A stretch of 64,000 nt of DNA, taken from Caldifarciminota bacterium SM23_42 (GTDB lineage Bacteria > Hydrothermota > Tepidihabitantia > SM23-42). Below the pieces are notes generated by a model, which had not been told where the DNA came from, did no database searches, and worked only from the letters and a program-made list of their open reading frames with translations. This document shows, piece by piece, positions 7,918-62,980 of this stretch. Location of the stretch: the NCBI GenBank assembly GCA_001303785.1, contig LJUJ01000001.1, positions 62,001 through 126,000 of the forward strand. The letters are read 5' to 3'. The position numbers and the translations under genes were made by a program. How positions within the stretch are numbered: position 1 is the stretch's first letter; each line of letters begins with the position of its first letter.

Positions 7918-7945
7918 ATTATAGTGAAAACGATAGAATTGTCAA
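7918..7945 (-). promoter_or_regulatory. Consensus sigma70 promoter of eno
   Basis: On the minus strand TTGACA (7940-7945), 16 bp, TATAAT (7918-7923). Both hexamers are perfect. Predicted start near 7911 gives a leader of about 40 nt including the ribosome site. Confidence 0.88.
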
Positions 7946-8004: not shown

Positions 8005-9579
8005 TTAATGCGGATGGTACCGTAATGGGCAAGCCAAACAGCGCGCTGCCTCATTCATTAGCTCTTCTCTCTTTGCCCACAGCTCAACTTCCTTGAAGTC
8101 GCCTTTTCTTTCCTCGATATCACGGTGAGGAATGGTGATTCGTGGTGTTTCTGTAAGAGGAAGTAGTCTCACCTTCGGACTGTAGGTTTTCCTGAATAGT
8201 GTTACAAGAAAGATTGGCAGGCCCCTCAAATGCGCGTCGATGCGCCTAGCGGCATTCATACCGTGACCCACGGCGTGGGCGATAGTTGCGCTTCCTAGGA
8301 CGACATCGCCGCCCGCAAAGATTTTTTGGTGTGACGTCTTTCCATTCTTTGTCTTAATATGTCTATTTTTATCGAATTTTACGAGGTCCTTAAGAAAATC
8401 AGTCTCGGGATGCTGCCCAATCGCCATAACTACGGTATCCAATTTGACTTCAAATTCGCTTCCTTCAATTTTCTTTACTTGACCCTTTCTACCTTCTGCA
8501 CATTCGGTTCTGAGCAATGTGATTTTATGTTTCTCTATTTTGACGGGAACAACTAGAGGAATGATTTCCACGCCTTCTTCCTTTGCTTCTTCAAGATTCT
8601 CATGCTCAGCAGGCATATCTTCGATGTTCCGGCGGTAGTATATTGCGACCTGGTGTCCTTCCCGTATTAGGCTACGTGCAATGTCAATCGCGGTATTACC
8701 GCCGCCGATGATGCCGACCTTACCGAGATGGTATAACTCACCTTTTTTGATACGTCTAAGTACATCAAAACCATCCAACGCATTCTCTTCTCCATGGATA
8801 CCAAGTTTTATCGGTTTCCACACACCGGTCGCGACAAAGACAGCATCGTAATCCCGTAGTAGTTCTTCTATTGATACGTCCTTGCCAATCTCTACTCCAC
8901 ACTTTAGTTCGAATTTCAAGGTCATTAGGGTTTCAATTTCTTGATCGAGGACAGCCTGAGGGTGACGAAATTCTGGGATGAGTATGCCTAACACGCCGCC
9001 CGGTTTTTCTTCGCGTTCGTAGACCGTCACTCTGTATCCTCTATGTGAGAGATAATACGCGGCACTAAGTCCACATGGTCCGGCACCGACTATGGCTACC
9101 TTTTTTTTCTTCGGCTTGTGTCTGTGGACAGGCAGTATAGTCTTGACGCCGGCTCGCAAGTAGCGTATCGCTACTGGTGCGTCTATGCCTCTTCTCGTAC
9201 AATGACTCTCACACGGCGCAAGACAGATTCTTCCTAGTGTATCGAAAAAAGGTACATAAGGGTAACGTTCCTCGCTGTCGGTTGCAAGATGGTTTATGTA
9301 AGCCCAGGGCATAATACCTGCCGGGCATATTTTCTCGCAGGGTGGCTTTTGGTATCGGAACCCCTTGTGCGCATCGAGAATGTTGTAGAGCCAGATTAAT
9401 ACCCAGGCGGCCAAGAGTCCCCAAAATGCTTGGTTGATGCCGGTCCAGATAATAACCATGAGGGCTATCGAACCATAGAAAATGGCGGCGAATGCGATGC
9501 CTGTCCATAACCTACCCGCATAGATTTGCCCAGCACCGACTATGAAGGTTGATAAGAGGGCTGTTCTACCTGACTTCAT
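8005..9579 (-). CDS. Membrane-anchored GltD-like NAD(P)H/FAD oxidoreductase
   Basis: 524 residues. An N-terminal part (about 1-75) has a GAGQIYAGRLWTG loop and two to three hydrophobic helices, like TM2-type small membrane modules. Next come the Fe-S cysteines typical of the glutamate-synthase small subunit/dihydropyrimidine dehydrogenase N-terminus (CEKICPAG and CLAPCESHCTRRG). Then follow the FAD site VAIVGAGPCGLSAAYYLSHRG and the NAD(P) site VGIIGGGNTAIDIARS, with the second FAD motif IFAGGDVVLGSATIAHAVGHG. A last CLACP follows. This is the electron-input subunit of this enzyme group, but no partner glutamate synthase large subunit is present. It overlaps the NapH-like gene by 14 bp, which suggests that NAD(P)H electrons are passed to that Fe-S membrane protein. 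Confidence 0.87.
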   Translation of the reverse strand: MKSGRTALLSTFIVGAGQIYAGRLWTGIAFAAIFYGSIALMVIIWTGINQAFWGLLAAWVLIWLYNILDAHKGFRYQKPPCEKICPAGIMPWAYINHLATDSEERYPYVPFFDTLGRICLAPCESHCTRRGIDAPVAIRYLRAGVKTILPVHRHKPKKKKVAIVGAGPCGLSAAYYLSHRGYRVTVYEREEKPGGVLGILIPEFRHPQAVLDQEIETLMTLKFELKCGVEIGKDVSIEELLRDYDAVFVATGVWKPIKLGIHGEENALDGFDVLRRIKKGELYHLGKVGIIGGGNTAIDIARSLIREGHQVAIYYRRNIEDMPAEHENLEEAKEEGVEIIPLVVPVKIEKHKITLLRTECAEGRKGQVKKIEGSEFEVKLDTVVMAIGQHPETDFLKDLVKFDKNRHIKTKNGKTSHQKIFAGGDVVLGSATIAHAVGHGMNAARRIDAHLRGLPIFLVTLFRKTYSPKVRLLPLTETPRITIPHRDIEERKGDFKEVELWAKREELMNEAARCLACPLRYHPH

Positions 9580-10360
9580 GTTTAATCGCCTTGGTTGGAC
9601 AAATCTTTACACAATCCAGGCAGCGTATGCAGTCGATGTCGTGCTGATGGCGGTATATGCCTACGTGCATGGGACATACCATCTGACAGGATTCACACGC
9701 GATACATTTATCTTTGTCGACCTTCAATCTCCATACACTGAAGCGGTTGAAAATCGAGTATATAGCACCGACCGGACAGAATGTTCGGCAGAAGAATCTC
9801 TTGATGGATATAGAAAAGAGAATTATGCCCAGTAGTATTGCGATTTTCATGTAGTAATGCCAACCAACTAGCGCCCGTAGATCGCCCGTAGTGTCGGCAA
9901 GAACAAGGGGTATGCCGGCAATCAAGGCGCCATCCGGACAAAGCTTGCAAAACCATGGTTCTGCTGTGATATAGGCAATTACTCCGGCAACCCCGACGAG
10001 CACGACGTATTTGAAGTATGAGAAGACCTTGGGTAGTTTCATCTTGAAGGATTTGATCTTGTAAAGGAGGTCCTGGAAGAATCCGAAAGGACATATCCAG
10101 CCACAGGTCATTCTTCCGACAACCATACCGACGGTTCCAAAAAGACCGGCGACATAGAAGGGAAATAGCCTCAGCCCTATGAAGTGCTGCAGACCGCCCA
10201 TTGGGCACGAATACCAGGCAAGTGGACATCCCCAGCAGTTCAGAATCGGTGTGCAAGCTCGCTTTAAAACTCCCTGGTATATCCCGCCGGCAAAGAAGGC
10301 TGGGATATAGGAATTCTGTATTATTGTGGCGATGATTTGGACGGTACGTTTCAGCTTCAC
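9566..10360 (-). CDS. NapH/MauN-type membrane 4Fe-4S protein
   Basis: About 264 residues. The family hallmark CGWICPFGFFQDLLYK and a second CRTFCPVGAIYS are present, with a further CWGCPLAWYSCP cluster near the N-terminus and two C-terminal ferredoxin sites (CIACESCQMVCP and CIRCLDCVKICP). Hydrophobic helices lie between them. NapH-like proteins carry electrons between the quinone pool or cytoplasmic donors and the periplasm. The start is GTG at 10360, overlapping the TGA of the small CXXC gene (GTGA); an open frame reaches an ATG at 10384 but is inside that gene. Gene order flavoprotein, NapH-like, CXXC peptide suggests one electron-transfer unit. Confidence 0.9.
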   Translation of the reverse strand: MKLKRTVQIIATIIQNSYIPAFFAGGIYQGVLKRACTPILNCWGCPLAWYSCPMGGLQHFIGLRLFPFYVAGLFGTVGMVVGRMTCGWICPFGFFQDLLYKIKSFKMKLPKVFSYFKYVVLVGVAGVIAYITAEPWFCKLCPDGALIAGIPLVLADTTGDLRALVGWHYYMKIAILLGIILFSISIKRFFCRTFCPVGAIYSIFNRFSVWRLKVDKDKCIACESCQMVCPMHVGIYRHQHDIDCIRCLDCVKICPTKAIKHEVR

Positions 10361-10500
10361 TCGATTCCCATACAGGAAAGGCACATAACTGAACCGACAG
10401 TTTCGGTTTCAATGAAATCGCCGAGCTTACCACCGTACCAGATACCACCTACGAACACAAGTGTTACGATAATCATAAGGATGAGGAATAGTCTTCTCAT
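10357..10500 (-). CDS. CD1871A-like CXXC microprotein
   Basis: A 47-residue gene, too short for ordinary ORF lists: MRRLFLILMIIVTLVFVGG forms one membrane helix, followed by a short linker and the C-terminal CLSCMGIE. This resembles the small CD1871A family (one helix, then ICLECIGIG at the end), which I recall as neighbours of NapH-like Fe-S genes. The ribosome site AAGGAG is well placed before the ATG. Its TGA overlaps the GTG of the next gene. The helix plus terminal CXXC suggests a membrane thiol carrier working with the NapH-like protein; the exact role is unknown. Confidence 0.85.
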   Translation of the reverse strand: MRRLFLILMIIVTLVFVGGIWYGGKLGDFIETETVGSVMCLSCMGIE

Positions 10501-10640: not shown

Positions 10641-12161
10641 TTAAAAGATGCTCGTTAATACCAACTTGACACCTTTAAATGGTTCCTCGAAACGACAGAC
10701 ACCGCCGGTGCATACAAGTCCGCCTTTTTCTGCACCCACACGGATACGCAGGTTGTGACGTGTCGTAAGGTCGAGGCTCAGCTCGGCAAGGGGCCAGTTT
10801 GTTTCAGGACCTATTTTCTTAAGATCGACCAGCCATTGCGGCGCCCGATTCCGCTTTTCGTACCTCAGGGTGAGTACGAATAATTCCGGTTTCCCTATGG
10901 ATAGGGCAAGTGCTTGGTCATAATAATCGCTTGTGTCACTGGTTACAAATTCGATCTGATATTCAGAACCCACGAAAAATGCACCGAAATTATAACTGAC
11001 TTCCACATGGGGCTTGGTTTCGGTTTTCTTCGCTATAGGAACTTCGATGCCCTGTTTTACGACCTTCTCGATAGCCGCGGTTACTTCTAGTTCATAGGTG
11101 GGATAAGTCGTTATTTTCGCAGCTTGTTCGGTCACGGCATCCATGGTTTCGTTGGTGATGAAAAACTGCTCGAATTTGTTCAATGTAGTATCGTGAGTGC
11201 TGATTTTATTGTTGTCCAATTCGATTGTCATGAAATCAAACGGTGAATACAGTACAGATAAACCGAAACCTATCTCATCTACCCCGCGATTCACAGAAAT
11301 ACCTGTTTTAATGGGTGTCACCGGTTCGTTGTAACGGTAGGTTTTGTTGTAGGGGAACCCGATCGTATCATAATCCATTGCCTGGAAAGTAATGCCAAAC
11401 CCTGGCAGGGCAAGGCTGGAGCTAAACAGTACCCCGTATCCCTTCAATCTGCCGCCGAGACCAGGATACGTGCCTAACTGCTGTGCATATTCAATATATG
11501 CATCAAAGGGACCAGTCCTGAACCCTAGATTTCCGCCATAAAGTTCTGTGAATGCCTCGGGTGTTATGTCTATGTCCCGGTTAATTCGGACATAACGTCC
11601 TCCCAAAGTAACCTTTGGAATGATTTTAGTTTCGAGATCTAGCCCGCGGATCTGTGCAGTTGTGTCATCATCGTTCTTTATGCCGTAAGTGTTTTCTTCG
11701 AAAAAGACATTCCTTGGTTTACCCGAAAGCAGTGTTAGTTGCGTATTAAAGTAATTGAACCCGGTCTGTATGCCAAACAATGATTTGTCTATTTTGAAAT
11801 CCTCATCAACAAACTGATTGAGCACCATACCTCGTCCAAACGTCTTATTGAAGCGGCCGTAGAGTACACTTACCGGGTCCTTGTGATACTGAACACTGTA
11901 GTCGATATAGGAGAGTTTCCGTGGATTTGGCAGGGAGGGGTCAGAAAAAAAGAAAGTGCCGCGCAGCGCGATATCGCCGTAGCTTAGACTCACCTTCAGT
12001 TTGTCTTCGATGTGCTCCTGGTAGTTCGTATCGCCTTCTTCATTTTCGTAGAACACCCAGTATTCGCCATAATTTGCACCGCTCAGCCGCAGGCTTTGCG
12101 CATATAGCGCGGGAATCGAGAAAGCAAGTAGGACTATGACCATGAGCGTAATTCTTCTCAT
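10641..12161 (-). CDS. DUF6029-like outer-membrane protein
   Basis: About 506 residues with a signal peptide (ITLMVIVLLAFSIPALYAQ). The mature part looks like a large beta-barrel: YGEYWVFYE near the N-terminus, GRFNKTFGRGMVLNQF, and many Tyr/Gly strands, ending in aromatic Phe (VKLVLTSIF). This pattern is close to the DUF6029 family of Bacteroidetes and relatives. A late pair VCTGGVC could form a disulfide. The ATG at 12161 is one base after the TlpA stop (TAGCATG), so it is coupled; an upstream frame adds ten residues inside tlpA. It is the third gene of the operon with the TlpA-like thioredoxin and the Omp28-like selenoprotein. Confidence 0.8.
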   Translation of the reverse strand: MRRITLMVIVLLAFSIPALYAQSLRLSGANYGEYWVFYENEEGDTNYQEHIEDKLKVSLSYGDIALRGTFFFSDPSLPNPRKLSYIDYSVQYHKDPVSVLYGRFNKTFGRGMVLNQFVDEDFKIDKSLFGIQTGFNYFNTQLTLLSGKPRNVFFEENTYGIKNDDDTTAQIRGLDLETKIIPKVTLGGRYVRINRDIDITPEAFTELYGGNLGFRTGPFDAYIEYAQQLGTYPGLGGRLKGYGVLFSSSLALPGFGITFQAMDYDTIGFPYNKTYRYNEPVTPIKTGISVNRGVDEIGFGLSVLYSPFDFMTIELDNNKISTHDTTLNKFEQFFITNETMDAVTEQAAKITTYPTYELEVTAAIEKVVKQGIEVPIAKKTETKPHVEVSYNFGAFFVGSEYQIEFVTSDTSDYYDQALALSIGKPELFVLTLRYEKRNRAPQWLVDLKKIGPETNWPLAELSLDLTTRHNLRIRVGAEKGGLVCTGGVCRFEEPFKGVKLVLTSIF

Positions 12162-12162
12162 G

Positions 12163-12672
12163 CTACTGCTCACAATTCCCACCTTGCTCATAGAGTTCTC
12201 GGACCTTGGCGATAATCAATTCTTCATCGCCGGGTTTATACCCCTGATGGGTGAATACGATTTTCTTGTTTTGGTCAATTATGAAGAAAGTAGGCATTGC
12301 CTGAACATTGTATAACTCCCGCATGGTATTCTCTGGGTCAAGGACAACCTGGTACGTCCACTTGTGGCTTGTCGCAAACGGTTTTACCTTTGGTACTGAC
12401 CTTGTCTTATCTTGACTGATTGCCAAAAGGGTTATATTCAGAGAATCGAATTCTTCAGAGTAGGGTCTTAGTGCATCTAACTCCTTGATGCACATCTTGC
12501 ACCATAATGCCCAAAAACTCACTAAAACAGGGCCTTCGGCAAGCAGCGAGTCGAGATTGACAATCTTCCCGTCAACATCTTCCAAGGTGAAACCTGGAGC
12601 GTCAGCCGTTGCTCCTTCCTCAGCAAAAGCAAAAACTAAAGGTATAAGCAATATCAACGAAAACGCTTTCAT
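12163..12672 (-). CDS. Periplasmic TlpA/ResA-type thioredoxin
   Basis: 169 residues: a signal peptide (AFSLILLIPLVFAFA), then a thioredoxin fold with the active site FWALWCKMCIKELD and the cis-Pro loop VQAMPTFFIID. Such proteins exchange thiols and disulfides outside the cytoplasmic membrane. Its ATG overlaps the TGA stop of the preceding selenoprotein gene (ATGA), so the two are coupled. The site is CKMC with normal Cys codons. It may donate electrons to, or receive them from, the UGFC site of its neighbour; that is inference. Confidence 0.93.
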   Translation of the reverse strand: MKAFSLILLIPLVFAFAEEGATADAPGFTLEDVDGKIVNLDSLLAEGPVLVSFWALWCKMCIKELDALRPYSEEFDSLNITLLAISQDKTRSVPKVKPFATSHKWTYQVVLDPENTMRELYNVQAMPTFFIIDQNKKIVFTHQGYKPGDEELIIAKVRELYEQGGNCEQ

Positions 12673-13388
12673 TGTACCTCCTCAAAATCCCTGGTGATTG
12701 CGTGCATAACTTTCTTGCTGTCCGTGTTTTGAATGAATACGACCGCCCTCATCTGCTCAACTGGAATGCCATGGTTGAACACAATGTTTGTATCGAGGGT
12801 GTCCGGATAGACCAGGTCAATCGGAAAACTGTAAAGTTGCTGGCACACGTAACTGAAAAAAGGGAGGAGGAATCCGCGAATACTGTCTTGGCAAATTGCA
12901 ATGTATGTGAGCATTTCCCCCGCGGGTATCGTGTCAGCCGTCACTATCGTTAGCTGCAGGTTCCCAGCAGTCGGTGTTGCTGTGGCCGTGAGTTCGAGGT
13001 TATATTGCGGCGTGTCTGCTTTGGCCGCCTGTATGTGGTCAGTGTAAGTGGTAAGATATGCATCCGGGTTGGGTTCAAAGACTTCATCCGTGCCGTCGAA
13101 TACAACGGTCGGATAATCAGGAATTCCGATTCCATAAAAAAGTGAGCGCTGGTCGACTATGGCTGCGGGACAGAATGTGTGATTATAGGATATTACTGCT
13201 AGAGAATCGCCATAGATTTTCACAAGGCTATCGAGCGCTTGCTCCGCAAGCGCGCAGAAACCTCAACCGTCATCCGTAAAGAATTCGGCTAGTACTGTGC
13301 GGTTTGTTGGCGCAGGAAGCTCTGGTGCCTCTGAACAGAGTATAAGAAAAACAGCCAATATAGGCACTAAGGTAATGATTTTCTTCAT
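12669..13388 (-). CDS. Omp28-like lipoprotein, predicted selenoprotein (UGFC)
   Basis: 239 codons when the in-frame TGA at 13263-13265 is read through; normal ORF calling sees only the part after residue 55. The protein has a lipoprotein signal (LAVFLILC, lipid Cys at 18), then VLAEFFTDDG-U-GFCALAEQALDSL, in which U42 replaces the first Cys of the CxxC of Omp28-type thioredoxin-like proteins (usual form EFTG-WCGYCP). Codons before and after the TGA are in one frame and one domain. A perfect SECIS hairpin starts nine nucleotides after the UGA. The gene ends with a true TGA overlapping tlpA. A pseudogene reading is possible but does not explain the hairpin, the motif position or the four parallel cases. 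Confidence 0.87.
13235..13253 (-). promoter_or_regulatory. Bacterial SECIS hairpin of the UGFC selenoprotein
   Basis: In the mRNA GCGCTTGC pairs perfectly with GCAAGCGC around a GGA loop. The loop begins 18 nt after the UGA and its first two bases are G. Size, distance and G rule fit the bSECIS consensus as I know it (loop 3-14 nt, 16-37 nt from UGA). Confidence 0.82.
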
Positions 13389-13393
13389 CGACT

Positions 13394-13421
13394 ATTATAC
13401 AAACAAATGCCAATCTGTCAA
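13394..13421 (-). promoter_or_regulatory. Consensus promoter, nearly leaderless
   Basis: TTGACA (13416-13421), 16 bp, TATAAT (13394-13399). Only five bases separate the -10 box from the ATG at 13388, so transcription should begin at or beside the start codon and the mRNA is predicted to be leaderless. No ribosome site is present. Confidence 0.85.
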
Positions 13422-13493: not shown

Positions 13494-15413
13494 TTATTCA
13501 ACGAGAATTATCTTCTGCGTTTCCGCGTGATTTTCGGTATTTAGCCTCACAAAGTATATGCCTGCTGGCAGCCTGCGACCTTGACCATCAGTGCCATTCC
13601 ACATTACTGATAACTGATCACCGATAGCTGATAACTGCTGAGAGAGGTTTTTAACCAGGCGACCAGAGATGTCGAATATCTTCAATTCTGCTTTGCTGTT
13701 ATCTATTATCTGGTATCTGATGTCTGTAAAGGTACTGAACGGATTTGGAACTACCGAGAGGGTCGCCTTCTTGACCCCTAGTTCAGTAATTTCCTCCACC
13801 GCAGTCAGGTTTATGCCGAAGAAATGCATAATCGAGTCCAGTAATGCGGCCTTAGTCGACACACCGGTGCCGTCAACCAGCCCGCCAAGCTCGAATGATG
13901 TCCCGACCGTCTTGTGTGTGCCGGCATCGTTTGCAACGCCGACCGTGTCCGTATTGGCTGCATTCCGCAGAATTGAGAAGCCGGTACCAGTTGCCCTCAG
14001 GTGATCTATATAGCTATTCTCACCTGAATAACCGAAGCTCATGCCTTCGGTGAATGTTGTGGCCGTTCCGGCAACCGTGAAGAGATCGCCTGAACCATCA
14101 CCAAGTGGCTGGATACCAAATAGAGGGCCGAAATTGTAACCCGACGGTGGGTCAAAATACCAGACATCACCACCTTCAAGATACACATTGCCGCCGTTAT
14201 TGATGTAGTCGACCAGCGCAAGTGCCTCAGGACTTGAGGCTCCGATAATATGATTGTACGAATAGATACCAACGCAAACAAAGATGGCCTCGTACACATC
14301 AATCGGATCTCCGGCGAGCAGAGCAGTGCTCTGTATACCCGTATATCCCAAGGCGGTTAGTATGCTATCTATTCTTTGTCCAGACATTGGCGTTGGGTCA
14401 GGATTCCATACGAGGTAGTGATAGGTGCCTATTGTGATACAGAATTCAAACGTATCAGCAAATGCACCTTCAGTAGCAATGAGTTGAATGCCTGCAACAT
14501 GACCGTTCGGTGTTGATGCGTCGGCAGAAATGACATACGGATCGCCGATGTTCTCTGCCGTGCTGTCGACGGCCAGATATCCGAAATAGCCTGCATTATC
14601 GGTGATTGTGATGTAAGGGTCAGAACATTCGATGGTCGTGGAAAGGTTGGTAAAGTCTACGCCGCCGAAATTCCTTAAGGTCGAGGTCATATCTGCTGTC
14701 TCGCCCGGATCTAATCTTCCGTTAACATTTCCACCGACATCATAGATGTCAGATCGGACACTACTAAGATAGGGATTTGTGCCTGTATAGTTCAGGGCAA
14801 TGTCGTCAGCGAGGACCCTCGCTGTGCAATGCCCACTTCAACACCCATTCGTAGTATCGAATAGGGCAACCTGGATTTTTAAGATGTCTGGTGGATTCAC
14901 ACCGGGTACGTTTGCCAGCTCGTCGTTTACATTGAACGAGTAGTTAAACCAGTTATTTGTATCCGCGGCGAGGATGAGATTCACCGTGCTGGAACTCGTC
15001 CAAAAGCAGTGCGGTGTTGGCCAACAGATTCGCGTGTCGCCGAGTACGTTGTCGTTTTCATCAAGGTATCTGATGAGAATTGCCGCCGCTGCCCAATACG
15101 GAGCGCTTGGATTAAGTTCACGCGCCGATAGTCTTGCATCCACCGTGAACTCCAGATCGGCCAGAGACATGGTTGTTGGTATCGACACTGTTTGGTGTAA
15201 TTTCGCGTGCGTAGCATCGTATTTTTTCACTCTTGCTTCAAAATCAGGATCGGGATTGAAACCAAGGCCTCGATCAATGGTATCGGTAATATACTGCGTT
15301 CCAATTCCTTCAGTCCAACCGTTTGATAGTTCTTGCTCGAAATCGCCATTAGTAAGGAGCATTCCGGCGCTGGCTAATCCACACATGAGGAGTAGAGAAA
15401 GGTATCGGTGCAT
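13494..15413 (-). CDS. Secreted carbohydrate-binding-like protein, predicted selenoprotein, type-A sorting domain
   Basis: 639 codons when TGA at 14838-14840 (residue 192) is decoded; otherwise it splits into 191- and 398-residue pieces. A signal peptide (LLLMCGLASA) is followed by a CBM-like jelly-roll domain starting LTNGDFEQELSNGW. Near its end is NGCUSGHC, with Cys on both sides of U192. Ig-like and ThuA/gingipain-like regions follow (LVWNPDPTP, NNGGNVYLEGGDVWY). The C-terminal 90 residues are the type-A sorting domain (VVPNPFSTFTDIRY, LKIFDISGRLVKNL, WNGTDGQG, GIYFVRLN). The second fragment has no signal or start of its own, which argues against two genes. The ATG at 15413 follows AAGGAG, 10 bp after the upstream gene. 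Confidence 0.85.
14807..14824 (-). promoter_or_regulatory. Bacterial SECIS hairpin (GGUC loop)
   Basis: CAGCGAG pairs with CTCGCTG around GGUC, the same four-base loop I know from Escherichia coli fdhF. Twenty nucleotides separate the UGA from the loop. Partial outer pairing (GGGCA with TGCCC) extends it. Confidence 0.84.
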
Positions 15414-15423
15414 ATCAACTCCT

Positions 15424-16479
15424 TTATTGCACTACCACTTTTCCCGTAGTCTTGATTTCGGTGCTTTCGAAGCGATACAAGTATACACCGGCACTCACAC
15501 GGGTACCTTGTTCATTGTTGAGATTCCAGGTGACTGTCTCTTCATTGCCCGAAGAGATACCGTGCATCGTTTTAACCTCACGCCCACTTACATCATAGAA
15601 GGTAATGCGATATGCGTCTCCGGCAGGAAGTGTAAATGCGAATCTTGTGCCACTGACACAGGGATTTGGAATCGGCGCGATGTGTGAAGCAGCGATGTCG
15701 TTGTTACCATATTCTTCGACCCCGAGTTCTGCAATGTCGAGGATGGCGCCCTGCCATATTTCAATGGTTGAATCTGATGGGTTCATGTTCAAATCCTGTA
15801 ACCAGGCAACGAATTCAATCATTTCTGGGTTCCAATTGGGTTGAAGGGCAAAGGTTTGACTAATGGTCAGTGAATCGCCAGCCGGGATCGAGACAGTTTC
15901 ACCGTTTTGGTTAGGTAGATAATCACGTGCGACATGATTGTGCCACGGGTCCCCGGCTAAGTATTGGGTATAAATGCTGTCTTCGGTGACAACGAAAATG
16001 GCGCGTCCATTCAGCGTTGCGGTGGAGTCATTGCGGAATTGCGCATAGACCGTGCCTGTTCCTTGTAAGGGCCACCAATCACCCCACATCGTTATGGTGA
16101 CAGGTGCGGATTGGGCCAGACGAGTGACAATCCTTGTTTGCCATGTGCCATAGCTTGTGGTACCTTTGTGCCCATCAAACCATAAATAAGGCGTATAGTA
16201 GCCCCAGCTTCCACCTTGGAAATGAGGCGGTGGATAGGAGTACATTCGTTGCAGCGCCTCAGCGCAATACATGCCAAAGCTGTTATTAACGACATGCATT
16301 TCAACCAGTGCTATTTGTCCTGGATAAGTTAGTGTGATGTTGGCCAGCGTACCGCTGGCAGCCCAGCATCCACTTCAGCCCTCTTGGTACAACTCTTCGC
16401 AGACTACGACGCGCTCGGCCGAGAAGGCAGCTGTGAATAATCCCAAGCCAAGCAAGAGCAAAGCTAGATATTTATGCAT
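15424..16479 (-). CDS. Omp28-like secreted protein, predicted selenoprotein (USGC), type-A sorting domain
   Basis: 351 codons with the TGA at 16375-16377 read as Sec (residue 35). Signal peptide LALLLLGLGLFTAAFSA, then VVVCEELYQEG-U-SGCWAASGTLANI: a thioredoxin-like UxxC motif in the place of the Omp28 CxxC, followed by VEMHVVNNSF and the usual Omp28 middle domain. The C-terminus is a type-A sorting domain (IPNPCVSGTRFAF, ITFYDVSGREVKTM, VSAGVYLYRFES). Without readthrough only residues 61 onward would be called. RBS AAAGGAGG lies 4 nt before the ATG at 16479. First gene of a two-gene operon with the carbohydrate-binding-like selenoprotein. Confidence 0.87.
16343..16359 (-). promoter_or_regulatory. 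Bacterial SECIS hairpin (GUA loop)
   Basis: GCCAGCG pairs perfectly with CGCTGGC around GUA. The loop lies 22 nt after the UGA and starts with G. Confidence 0.82.
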
Positions 16480-16698: not shown

Positions 16699-18603
16699 TT
16701 ATTCAACGAGAATTATTTTCTGTGTTTCCTTATGATTATCGGTATTCAGTCTCACAAAGTATATGCCTGCTGGTAACCCGCGACCTTGCCCATCAGTGCC
16801 ATTCCATGTCACTGATGACTGATCACCAACTGCAGATAACTGCGCGGAAAAGTCCCTGACCAAACGGCCCGTGACGTCGAATATCCTTAATTCAACTTTG
16901 TTGTTGTCTGTTATCTGATATCCGATATCAGTGAAGCCGCTAAACGGATTTGGAGCAATCGAGAGGGTCACCTTCTCGACGTCGAGTTCAGTAATTTCCT
17001 CCACCGCAGTCAGGTTTATTCCGAAGAAATGCATAATCGAGTCTAGTAATGCGGCCTTAGTCGAAACACCGGTGCCGTCAACCAATCCACCGAGCTCGAA
17101 TGAGGCACCGACCGTCTTGTGTGTTCCGGCGTCGTTTGCAACACCGACTGTGTCCGTAATGTATGTATTCTTCAGGATTGAGAAGCCGGTGCCCGTTGAT
17201 CTCAGGTGATCGATATAGCTGTTCTCGCCAGAATAGGTCATGGTCATGCCTTCGGTAAATGTTGTGGCTATTCCTGAAACCGAGGAGAGATCGGCCGAGC
17301 CATCATTAACCGCTTGAATGCCAAACAGGGGCCCGAAATTGTAGCCCTGCATATAGAGTGGGTCATAGTACCAGACATCCCCGCCCTCGAGGTACATATT
17401 GCCGCCGTTATTGAGATAGTCTGCTAGTGCGTTGGCTTCAGAACTCGTTGCAGTGATGGTATAGTTAGATGCGAAAATGCCGACGCAGACAAAGATTGCT
17501 TGATGTTGATCGAGCGGTTCCTCGGTCAACAAAGTGTTTGAGATGTTACCACTGTAGCCAAGCGATGAAAGGGTGCTGTGGATTGTCTGACCAGGAGTCG
17601 GTGTGGGATCAGGATTCCACACGAGGTAGTGGTAGGAGCCAACGACGACGTTGAAAATGAGAGTATCCGCGAACGCTCCGTCTGCGGCAATCAATTGAAA
17701 TTCAGCAAGATGGCCATTGGGCGTCGATATATCGGCTGATACTACATAAGGATCGTCTGTATTTTCTTTTGTGCTATCAACTGCCAGATAGCCGAAATAG
17801 CCAGAGTTGTCGGTGATGGTAATATAAGGGTCGGTACATACTAATGTCGTGTTGAGATTGGTGAAATCGACGCCGCCGATATTCTTGATCGTGACCGTCA
17901 TATCAACGGTTTCACCCGGATCTATGCGCCCGTTGTTATTGCCGCCTAAATCAATTATGGTATTTGCCAAGCATGCAACGTATGGATCTGTTCCTGTATA
18001 ATTGAGGATGATATCATCGGCGAAGACCTTCGCCTCTTCTGTATCCCCTCAGTCATCCACACATTGAGCGATTAGAGAAAATTGAATCTTTGCGATGTCT
18101 GTTGGGGTTATCCCAGGTAAATTCGTGAGTTCGTCGTTGATGTTGAATGCATACGTATTCCATGATGTGTCTGCGGCTTGAATCACATGGCAGGAATTGT
18201 TATTCACCCATGGGCATGCTACAGTGCGGGCGCATATTCTGGTCCATCCCATAAGTGAATCTGACGCATCCAGATATGAGATTGAGACAGCAGCGCCAGA
18301 CCAGCACTGAGAAGAAGTACCAAAGGCATAGATTTTAGCATTGACTGAGAATTCGAGGTCGGTTGTTGGAATGGGCGTGATTTGGTATAGCTCTACAGAA
18401 CCTGTACCATCGCCTTTGTGCACATATACCTCATAATCAGGGTCAGGATCATAAGTAGTGCTGCGCGTGATTTCCATGATACCAGAACCGGCCATGAGTT
18501 CAGACCACCCGGTGGAGAGCTCGTCTTCGAAGTCGCCGTTGGTAATCAATACACTTGCACTGCCGAAGGTTACCAGCAATAGCAACATAAAGTATCGGTT
18601 CAT
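16699..18603 (-). CDS. Secreted carbohydrate-binding-like protein, predicted selenoprotein, type-A sorting domain
   Basis: 634 codons with TGA at 18049-18051 decoded (residue 185). Paralogue of the gene at 13494-15413 and close to it throughout the second half. Signal peptide MLLLLVTFGSAS, CBM-like domain beginning ITNGDFEDELSTGW, then AQCVDDUGDTEEAKVFADD, where U lies exactly nine residues before the shared ADD and a Cys four residues earlier could pair with it. Middle region with NNGGNMYLEGGDVWY and a sorting domain (APNPFSGFTDIGY, LRIFDVTGRLVRDF, GIYFVRLN). The ATG at 18603 follows AAGGAGGCGTT; an open frame reaches further upstream to 18711 but lies within the promoter. Confidence 0.85.
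18019..18034 (-). promoter_or_regulatory. Bacterial SECIS hairpin (GGUC loop)
   Basis: GGCGAA pairs with TTCGCC around GGUC, 20 nt after the UGA. From the UGA through the hairpin it matches the copy in the next paralogue at all but one base, while flanking codons differ more. Confidence 0.84.
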
Positions 18604-18772: not shown

Positions 18773-20884
18773 TCATCTCAGTTGAATGATTTTCGTCGTT
18801 TCGGTTCTGTTGGAAGCTTGGACCTGGATGAAATAAACACCTTGGGCCAACGGTTTCAAATGTAACGCGATAGTACCTGTGCCTTGCATCAGACCGAAGT
18901 ATTTCTTCTCAAGCACCCGGCCGAGAATGTCATACAACGTTACTGAAGCGGGTGTTGCGTTAGCAAGGCTGTATTCTAGTGCATATTGACCATCGCGCGA
19001 AATTACTGGATATACTGCAAGCTTGGCGCTCGCCACTTCAGATCGGTTTTCTGCAATCCCAGTCCAAGCCCAGTATCGGTCATAAGCTGAATCGGCATTC
19101 ATTTCTAGATCTGCTAGATCATCGCCACCAATAACTGCAAATGCAACGGCATAGGCTTCACCTGGAGCTAAAGTGAACGGACCTACCGAGTTGCACGCAG
19201 ACCAGTTAAAGGGACGATCTGTTGAAGCATTCTGTATTGTGCCATCCATGAATTGTATCTGGATGTCATCGGGTAAACCCTGGTATGGGTTGACATAGAT
19301 TGCATGGTCAATCAGTGCTAGATTCGCCGCTGCCGTACTGCGCGGTGGATCAAGAATCGCAGTACCTACGTAGGGTGTATTGTAGTACATATAAGCCATA
19401 TTCCGGCTTGCATCAGAAGATCCCTGGTTCTGTGACTGTTGTATGCCAGATCCTATGTTCCAATCCATGAACATTGCGGCGTAGAGATCATTGATTGTCT
19501 GTGAACCGTCGTTTCGCAGAACGAATTTTGTTATCACGAAATCTTCAATCTGAGGAATATTCCATGCCCATGAGTACTGACTACAAACCAAATTCTTTGG
19601 TAAGGAGTGTCCCGCGTCGGTATAAATCGCAATTGAATACTCATCCACATCTTCCGGACCAGGCTCGAACATCCGGATGCGTCCGTCGGGGTCGATAGTT
19701 GTCTGCCAATCCGCGTCGTCTTGCCAGTTTTGCTCGTAGTATTGGTCGACTACGTAGTTGGCATCGGTGCCAACGGCGAAACTGCCGTAATAAAGATGGC
19801 TGCCTTGGCTGGGCGGATAATAGAATCCTACTCCTTCTGAATGGTCAGAGCCCATGTAGCCGATTGCGCCGTGACGGGTCATGCTCAATAGAACGTTGCC
19901 GCAGTCGTGGGTAGCACAATCCAAAAAAGGTGTTCCAATCTGCAGATCGAATTGGATGTCTGTTTGATAAGCATCAGCCGTGACATTCAATGAGAAGTCT
20001 ACCTTTGTCCCAGGTGGCGTGCTGGCACCCGCGGTGACAGAAAATGGGTCGCCTACGTTTTCCGCACTCTCACCTGGTGCGATCATCCCCCAATAGCCGT
20101 TTGCATCATTAATTGTAAGATCGGACGATGTGGAGCTAAGGATACCAGTTACATTGGAGAGTGTATCCTGGCTCATGTTTGTCAAGACTACCGTCAAGGC
20201 AGCCGTTTCGCCAGGATCGAGTATTCGGTTATTGTTGCCAGAAGCATCATCGATGCATACTTCTTCGAGGTGAGCAGCTCGGGGTTCGAGGGTTACGTCA
20301 TCGGCGAAGACCTTCGCCTCTTGTGTATCCCCTCAGTCGTCAAAACATTGAGCGAGTAGAGCTACCTCGATTTTCGCGATTTCTGATGGGGTAATACCGG
20401 GAAGAGATTGTAACTCATCTTCGATGTTAAACGTGTAAGAATGCCATGATGTGTCTGGAGCCTCGATGACATGGCAGGTATCGTTACTGTACCATGGGCA
20501 TGCGATACTAAAGGTGCATATTCTGGTCCACCCTAATACTGCATCCGAAGCATTCAGATATGAGACACAGACTGCAGCACCAGCCCAGCATTGAGAAGAA
20601 GTGGCGAAGATATAGAGTTTTGCATCGACGGAGAATACGAGGTCGGTATGTTCAACGTCCACGGCTTGGAAGAGTGTTACAAAACCATTGCCATCAGCTT
20701 TGTACACATAAGCCTCGTAATCAGGATCAGGGTAATAAGTGGTGCCTCTCGTAATTGTGCCAATGCCAGCAATAGTCTGATCCCAGCCGACTGATAGATC
20801 TTGCTCAAAATCGCCATTCGTCAGCATATTTGCAGCGAAGACGACCCCGGCGAAAATGAGCATGATGACAATTAATTTACGCAT
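18773..20884 (-). CDS. Secreted carbohydrate-binding-like protein, predicted selenoprotein, type-A sorting domain
   Basis: 703 codons with TGA at 20333-20335 decoded (residue 184). Signal peptide LIVIMLIFAGVVFA, then a CBM-like domain (LTNGDFEQDLSVGW) ending AQCFDDUGDTQEAKVFADD; Cys 180 and U184 are in the same C-x3-U arrangement as the neighbour. The second half differs from its paralogues: CATHDCGN, a probable propeller or jelly-roll body (DGRIRMFEPGPEDVDEY), then a sorting domain (VTLYDILGRVLEKK, LAQGVYFIQVQ). The ATG at 20884 follows AAAGGAGGAAC. Transcribed from a strong promoter with a leader of about 145 nt. Confidence 0.85.
20303..20318 (-). promoter_or_regulatory. Bacterial SECIS hairpin (GGUC loop)
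   Basis: GGCGAA pairs with TTCGCC around GGUC, 20 nt after the UGA at 20333-20335; almost the same sequence as the element at 18019-18034. Confidence 0.84.
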
Positions 20885-21033
20885 GTTCCTCCTTTCCACA
20901 ATTTTGTGTGCTTGTCATATGCATGTATTCATTAATTTGCCGCGTTGTACGGAATGCCTCGCACTCTTGATGTCTTGTGCCGTATAGACACATCCTTTGA
21001 GGACTCATGATATCTCCACTAACGGTCTACGTT

Positions 21034-62886: not shown

Positions 62887-62980
62887 GGAGGCGGATGGGT
62901 GCTGGTGTGCCTGACGGGCTTCAAACCCGGATATCCTTCGAAAGGGGGATGGTAGGTTCGATTCCTACACGCCTCCGCCA
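62887..62980 (+). tRNA. selC: tRNA-Sec (UCA), selC
   Basis: Begins GGAGGCGG and ends CGCCTCC-G-CCA with encoded CCA. The D arm is the long Sec type: GGGTGC-TGGT-GTGCCT, six pairs with wobbles and a four-base loop. The anticodon loop CTTCAAA carries UCA, which reads UGA. The variable arm is long and pairs (ATCC ... GGAT). The T arm is GTAGG-TTCGATT-CCTAC. The 8-bp acceptor has a G-A mismatch at its inner end; otherwise it matches the bacterial tRNA-Sec plan. It proves the genome decodes UGA as selenocysteine. selA, selB and selD are not in the window. Confidence 0.95.

Follow-up and report, generated by a model that had tools for sequence, protein, structure and literature searches.

A probable selenocysteine codon in the active site of an exported, HBP35/Omp28-related thioredoxin-fold protein of Caldifarciminota bacterium SM23_42

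Does a TGA triplet inside a reading frame end the protein, or does it specify a selenocysteine (Sec) in the active site, and in the latter case what would the protein do? This question is raised by a gene on the minus strand (12669 to 13388) of the 64,000-nucleotide stretch of DNA analysed here, hereafter the window. The frame starts with an ATG at 13388, ends with a TGA at 12671-12669 and, when translated with TGA as U, encodes 239 amino acids of a putative exported thioredoxin-fold protein. The TGA in question is codon 42 (13263 to 13265, minus strand). It is followed by GGT TTC TGC (G43, F44, C45) in the peptide context FFTDDG-U-GFC, where the codon of C45 (13254 to 13256, minus strand) would supply the resolving cysteine of the UGFC motif. 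The interval from 13235 to 13265 is fully accounted for by this TGA, the 9 nt after it and a perfect hairpin of 8 bp. The first-pass annotation had placed U42 at the first cysteine of a thioredoxin CxxC motif, directly before GFC. It had also stressed that UGA would act as Sec codon and as stop within one gene. This second point is correct but ordinary: of the Sec forms for which the fetched sequence reaches the stop, 18 have TGA there and 14 have TAA or TAG.

A genome search found homologues in 85 of the 147 genomes of the phylum. The taxon labels of 19 public records are mostly candidate division WOR-3 or Candidatus Stahlbacteria, with one Latescibacterota, one Planctomycetia and one TA06. 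Seventy loci were examined, chosen among the matches listed (the strong ones and most TGA-bearing ones, some weak TGA-bearing ones being left out); in this set the codon aligned with U42 is TGA in 43 cases (the window's own counted), TGT or TGC in 25 and GGA in one, and the position is missing in one. Thus, the cysteine or Sec that the first-pass annotation expected in relatives is indeed found there, and the alternation of TGA and TGY at this exact codon supports U42 as first residue of the thioredoxin motif. The Cys45 codon is TGY in all examined loci holding that position. Furthermore, the TGA is conserved over several families of the phylum, and protein similarity runs on past it. The single GGA (Gly) codon, at L021 (G082:C65), is accompanied by a full and perfect SECIS hairpin, and the same genome additionally holds a TGA copy (L041). 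Because the full hairpin is still present, the Gly codon would stem either from a Sec codon lost in the very recent past or from an error in the base call.

The hairpin directly behind the codon (13235 to 13253, minus strand) has an 8-bp stem, GCGCUUGC-GGA-GCAAGCGC, and is proposed as the SECIS element on the grounds of its fold, its covariation and its absence from Cys forms. PMC13188914 describes a bSECIS model with a loop of 3-9 nt, a stem of 4-16 bp, a G in the first two loop bases, a distance of 16-37 nt from the UGA and an MFE at or below -7.5 kcal/mol. The window hairpin, with its 3-nt loop (GGA), its 8-bp stem, a UGA-loop spacing of 17 nt and -12.3 kcal/mol, conforms to every rule. Model-conforming hairpins at or below -7.5 kcal/mol stand behind 59 of the 2620 TGA triplets of the window (both strands), and 11 of the 2620, codon 42's own counted, reach -12.3 kcal/mol or lower, which sets the hairpin of codon 42 above chance. 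The matches listed from a separate scan of every TGA frame in the window are mostly chance ones and served as a lead list only. The gene's own stop TGA lacks a model-conforming hairpin. Among the other long open frames of the window that were tested, none has one behind its terminal TGA, except three in which this TGA is itself a candidate Sec codon; their hairpins have -10.4, -7.3 and -7.3 kcal/mol, the last two narrowly missing -7.5.

An equally stable hairpin is obtained from just 1.0% of synonymous recodings of the window gene. The fold-energy z-score from dinucleotide shuffling is unimpressive (-1.36, with 22 of 200 shuffles equalling the hairpin); synonymous recoding, the SECIS model and covariation are more informative than this score. 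Among the loci examined, a hairpin that fits the model with -7.5 kcal/mol or lower is present in 31/43 Sec forms versus 0/25 Cys forms, the 17-nt spacing is kept in 37/43 Sec forms, and loci where at most 5% of synonymous recodings match the hairpin number 38/43 for Sec versus 1/25 for Cys. In an alignment of 41 distinct Sec sequences, 88.4% of the stem cells are paired, compared with 70.3% when shuffled and 24-52% in slid registers. Stem cells with a double change amount to 59, against a shuffled mean of 16.8 and 10-22 in slid versions, although for the number of pairs showing any double change the excess is modest, 49 of 500 shuffles reaching the observed value. The best model hairpin is weaker than -7.5 kcal/mol in 12 of the 43 Sec forms, with no stable one at L056, and the deep-branching Sec forms L038, L056 and L058-L060 have a hairpin in a different register, or none found. 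Taken together, these comparisons argue that the hairpin behind the Sec codon is under selection.

The genome is equipped to decode such a codon. A gene for tRNA-Sec with a UCA anticodon lies in the window (62887 to 62976, plus strand; detected by ARAGORN, and by Rfam RF01852 with 74.3 bits for a cut-off of 47), and reading frames for SelB, SelA and SelD lie a short way outside the window on the same contig. SelB scores 338.6 bits, above the family cut-off, and the SelA and SelD frames were identified by eye from the sequence, not from a family-model score. SelD (L009 17522-18478 and upstream, minus strand) is apparently itself a selenoprotein: reading through a TGA gives CAGUASK, Sec-type SelD having a UxxK motif (PMC13188914). 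It would then be annotated with a truncated N-terminus.

SelB profiles match in all 147 genomes; because EF-Tu and relatives match everywhere, only matches above the curated cut-off, in 61/147 genomes, were counted as SelB. With this definition, the gene upstream of the DUF6029 gene (see below) was compared at 55 syntenic loci, syntenic meaning within 1300 bases, a limit set after the distances had been seen and excluding L111 (G074, U, 4599 bases from DUF6029). It carries U in 27 SelB-bearing and 2 SelB-lacking genomes, and C in 0 SelB-bearing and 24 SelB-lacking ones, 2 being unaligned; 25 of 80 loci yielded no syntenic gene. An operon that has Sec where the genome bears SelB and Cys where SelB is lacking provides a clean natural experiment. 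Over all examined homologues, SelB is above the cut-off in 39 of the 43 TGA-form genomes, and SelA is found in three of the other four. One exception, G083 (U, no SelB, 66% complete), carries SelA. In the other, G066 (L035 and L112, TGA form with SECIS), neither SelA nor SelB was found in an assembly 91% complete, and the best tRNA-Sec match is marginal (48.4 bits); G066 goes against the pattern in which Sec follows its machinery.

In a tree of 93 sequences with codon 42 masked, a quick build with several long branches, 38 Sec forms and the sole Gly form make up one group with a support of 87, and over the whole tree Sec and Cys have replaced each other five times or more. At L038 (G074:C137), a TGA occupies the Sec position within an otherwise Cys-type paralogue group, with a different and weaker hairpin. 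This is possibly an independent switch to Sec.

Two readings of codon 42 without Sec have to be weighed. If the TGA were a true stop, the locus would be a pseudogene, or it would encode a 41-aa peptide and a 184-aa protein restarting at GTG 13223. The downstream part is indeed an open frame with a GTG start, and G066, where SelA and SelB were not detected, fits such a reading; however, a protein restarting at 13223 would be without the active site of the thioredoxin domain, and conservation extends to both frame and hairpin. Moreover, several families of the phylum share this TGA, which 43 loci have in the same place, with similarity continuing beyond it, while 25 others have Cys. We regard this reading as highly improbable, the codon survey, the selection on the hairpin, the covariation and the agreement with SelB effectively excluding it. 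Still less credible is a sequencing or assembly error by which a TGT or TGC Cys codon would have been misread as TGA. In its favour, the genome is a draft assembly in 59 contigs, but 43 genomes, of which several are assembled into a single contig, have an identical TGA (43 loci), and a covarying SECIS is confined to the TGA forms, which effectively excludes this explanation also. Codon 42 of the window gene therefore most likely encodes a selenocysteine in the active site, as judged from the alternation of codons, the covarying SECIS, the complete Sec machinery and the near-perfect match to the presence of SelB. When the TGA is read as a stop during annotation, a 184-aa fragment would be called and the active site lost.

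To which family would this protein belong? Its AlphaFold2 model is confident (pLDDT 89.2) and shows two domains, first that of a thioredoxin at residues ~30-123 and then an Ig-like beta-sandwich at ~127-239. UGFC is positioned after the strand 32-38, at the start of the helix 45-62. The nearest solved structure to the predicted model is HBP35 of Porphyromonas gingivalis (PDB 5y1a), which shares the two-domain fold (Z 22.9, rmsd 2.4, 207 residues) with 12% identity and which has Cys48/Cys51 and a C-terminal surface-sorting domain (PMC2907840). Plain thioredoxins match the first domain, over residues ~30-124, with Z of about 10-11. The second-closest fold (Z 18.6 over 194 residues) is that of PDB 2axo, which we take to be a DUF1223 protein (PF06764); the DUF1223 profile gives 14.2 bits at residues 34-57, for a Pfam cut-off of 30.7. 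The third is an Omp28 domain (PDB 2r2c_B), superposing on the C-terminal domain with Z 12.3. In the predicted model, HBP35 and DUF1223 are thus at least as close in fold as Omp28.

The first-pass annotation had called the protein an Omp28-like lipoprotein and had suggested a comparison with Omp28 family members. In this comparison the protein falls far below the curated cut-offs: the Omp28 lipoprotein model NF033782 gives a weak 24.2 bits at residues 26-77 (cut-off 150), PF11551 (Omp28) has no match at E <= 1, and no Pfam family is above its cut-off over the protein. The same holds for NF045500, an Omp28-related selenoprotein model of 377 positions as against 239 aa here, with 26.4 bits for a cut-off of 200. 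All 15 close members examined match both NF045500 and NF033782 weakly, NF045500 at E <= 0.01. Because every curated cut-off is missed, plain membership in Omp28 or NF045500 is rejected and "Omp28-like" is fair as a distant relation. As to the putative lipoprotein character, C18-S19 is invariant in 15/15 members, but position -1 is atypical: a lipobox has G, A or S directly before the Cys, and such a small residue seldom precedes C18, most members having F, L, V or another one there.

Thioredoxin-like selenoproteins of the UxxC type are common (PMC13188914). NF045500, listed in the same source as hypothetical protein GOS_C, has this motif in a thioredoxin-like fold, and GOS_C was first found in 2008 in ocean data, with 74 sequences (PMC13188914; PMC2398784). 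The model of the window protein, which resembles thioredoxins with the Z values given above, shows the same combination. As in the bacterial UxxC selenoproteins of the Trx, TlpA-like, DsbA-like and DsbG-like types, Sec comes first in the redox motif (PMC13188914), but the window protein differs from them by an added C-terminal Ig-like domain and by the want of a Pfam family above cut-off. Searches of an open-access paper library on selenoproteins in connection with Omp28, WOR-3 or Stahlbacteria did not turn up the branch described here. Ocean data had already revealed this type of selenoprotein, of which the window protein forms a separate, new branch.

The gene belongs to a set of minus-strand genes that gives indications on its possible role. 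Its stop overlaps the start (ATGA) of a gene for a TlpA/ResA-like periplasmic thioredoxin with a CKMC motif (12163 to 12672; Pfam AhpC-TSA, 83.9 bits), which is adjacent in relatives as well. Next come a DUF6029 protein, a predicted outer-membrane beta-barrel (10641 to 12191; PF19494, 77.9 bits), then a NapH/MauN-like membrane ferredoxin (Fer4_5; 9566 to 10384) and a GltD-like, NAD(P)H-dependent FAD/Fe-S oxidoreductase (8005 to 9579), both assigned from profile matches. The NapH-like gene is also a neighbour in relatives, and the oxidoreductase gene adjoins it in some of them. Where the fetched flank was long enough, most Sec-form relatives have TlpA-DUF6029-NapH downstream in this order. The Cys paralogues are located elsewhere than the Sec-form operon, several of them close to SelD. 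The DUF6029 model has its best match with an usher (Z 19.6), followed by alginate porin barrels, and exactly one Cys pair, a CX4C near the C-terminus formed by C494 and C499, is conserved in 23/23 homologues.

Considering this gene set, a mechanism may be envisaged. With SelB acting at the hairpin that immediately follows UGA 42, tRNA-Sec would decode this codon as selenocysteine. In the mature protein, the selenol of Sec42 would attack and Cys45 would resolve the selenenylsulfide, so as to make the protein a fast reductase of disulfides, or of other oxidised sulfur or selenium, in the outer cell envelope. It would be recharged by the co-encoded TlpA, itself supplied with electrons from NAD(P)H by the co-encoded oxidoreductase and the NapH-like membrane ferredoxin. 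The DUF6029 barrel encoded alongside would offer a likely client in its one invariant Cys pair. An envelope relay from NAD(P)H to ferredoxin, TlpA, the Sec protein and a client would be the most economical reading of the gene set. We infer this relay from gene order alone, and the chemistry, the direction of electron flow, the partners and the client share this conditional standing, while the Sec codon, the SECIS, the machinery, the predicted fold and the operon are backed by the sequence analysis itself.

Another view would retain the Sec at UGA 42 but assign to the protein an oxidase or isomerase activity, the binding of metal or hemin, or an accessory role at the surface instead of a reductase function fed by TlpA and NapH. 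HBP35, the structural relative, reduces insulin with a need for both C48 and C51, and it binds hemin as well, so that it can be invoked on either side: its thioredoxin activity requires the two active-site cysteines (PMC2907840). Conserved neighbours can act in other pathways; against this, a ferredoxin and another thioredoxin are encoded in the conserved set to which the gene belongs. Sec, moreover, normally serves reductive chemistry. A non-reductase function appears unlikely, without being negligible. The whole explanation, namely Sec at UGA 42 in an exported thioredoxin-domain reductase that is recharged by a co-encoded TlpA/NapH relay, is in our judgement very probable.

The promoter region of the gene also has a particular organization. 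A perfect TTGACA-16-TATAAT promoter (13394 to 13421, minus strand) has a -10 element ending 5 nt ahead of the ATG. The window contains six perfect TTGACA-N-TATAAT copies for 0.07 expected, the others being at 7918, 16522, 21034, 49230 and 60889 (minus). In a comparison of 23 of the 43 Sec loci with 19 Cys forms having an identifiable start, start codons being picked by script, 21/23 Sec forms versus 1/19 Cys forms have a promoter, with no more than two mismatches, whose end lies 5-9 nt ahead of the start. The usual distance from the -10 element to the transcription start puts the 5' end of the mRNA at the start codon. Because the -10 element ends 5 nt before the ATG, the mRNA of the Sec gene would probably be leaderless, an arrangement apparently conserved in relatives.

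Upstream of the gene lie other candidate Sec proteins, which are more surprising than the UGFC gene. Three of them are secreted paralogues that carry type IX sorting tails and are encoded on the minus strand at 13494-15413, 16699-18600 and 18773-20899, each with one in-frame TGA (14840-14838, 18051-18049 and 20335-20333, respectively). The TGA belongs to an N-terminal domain and closely precedes a conserved AD[DN] stretch; a hairpin with a GGUC loop stands 20 nt behind each. No family model is above cut-off for this domain. The residue at the site is U in 20/20 covering BLAST matches, three being the window's own, and never Cys. Between two of these genes, a PF11551 Omp28 protein (15424-16476, minus strand; 46.8 bits) has a sorting tail and a TGA at 16377-16375 giving USGC at the thioredoxin motif; of 22 matches, the window's own counted, 16 have U at the site and 6 have C. 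This neighbour was considered as a close paralogue of the UGFC gene and rejected, since a pairwise BLAST gives just 20.8 bits.

A wider picture may be imagined, which we put forward as possible but doubtful. WOR-3 bacteria would possess a selenium redox system outside the cell, where the Sec-thioredoxin, expressed from a strong leaderless operon and recharged by TlpA and NapH, would keep the Cys pair of the barrel reduced and serve the neighbouring exported, type IX-tailed Sec proteins, including one family never seen with Cys.

The Sec branch described here is very well supported and useful, yet of a selenoprotein type that specialists would expect. With it, the exported thioredoxin/Omp28/HBP35 group gains a widely conserved Sec-containing member line in a candidate phylum. 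The outer-membrane barrel and the sorting-tailed neighbours indicate the cell surface as a site where selenocysteine would be used.
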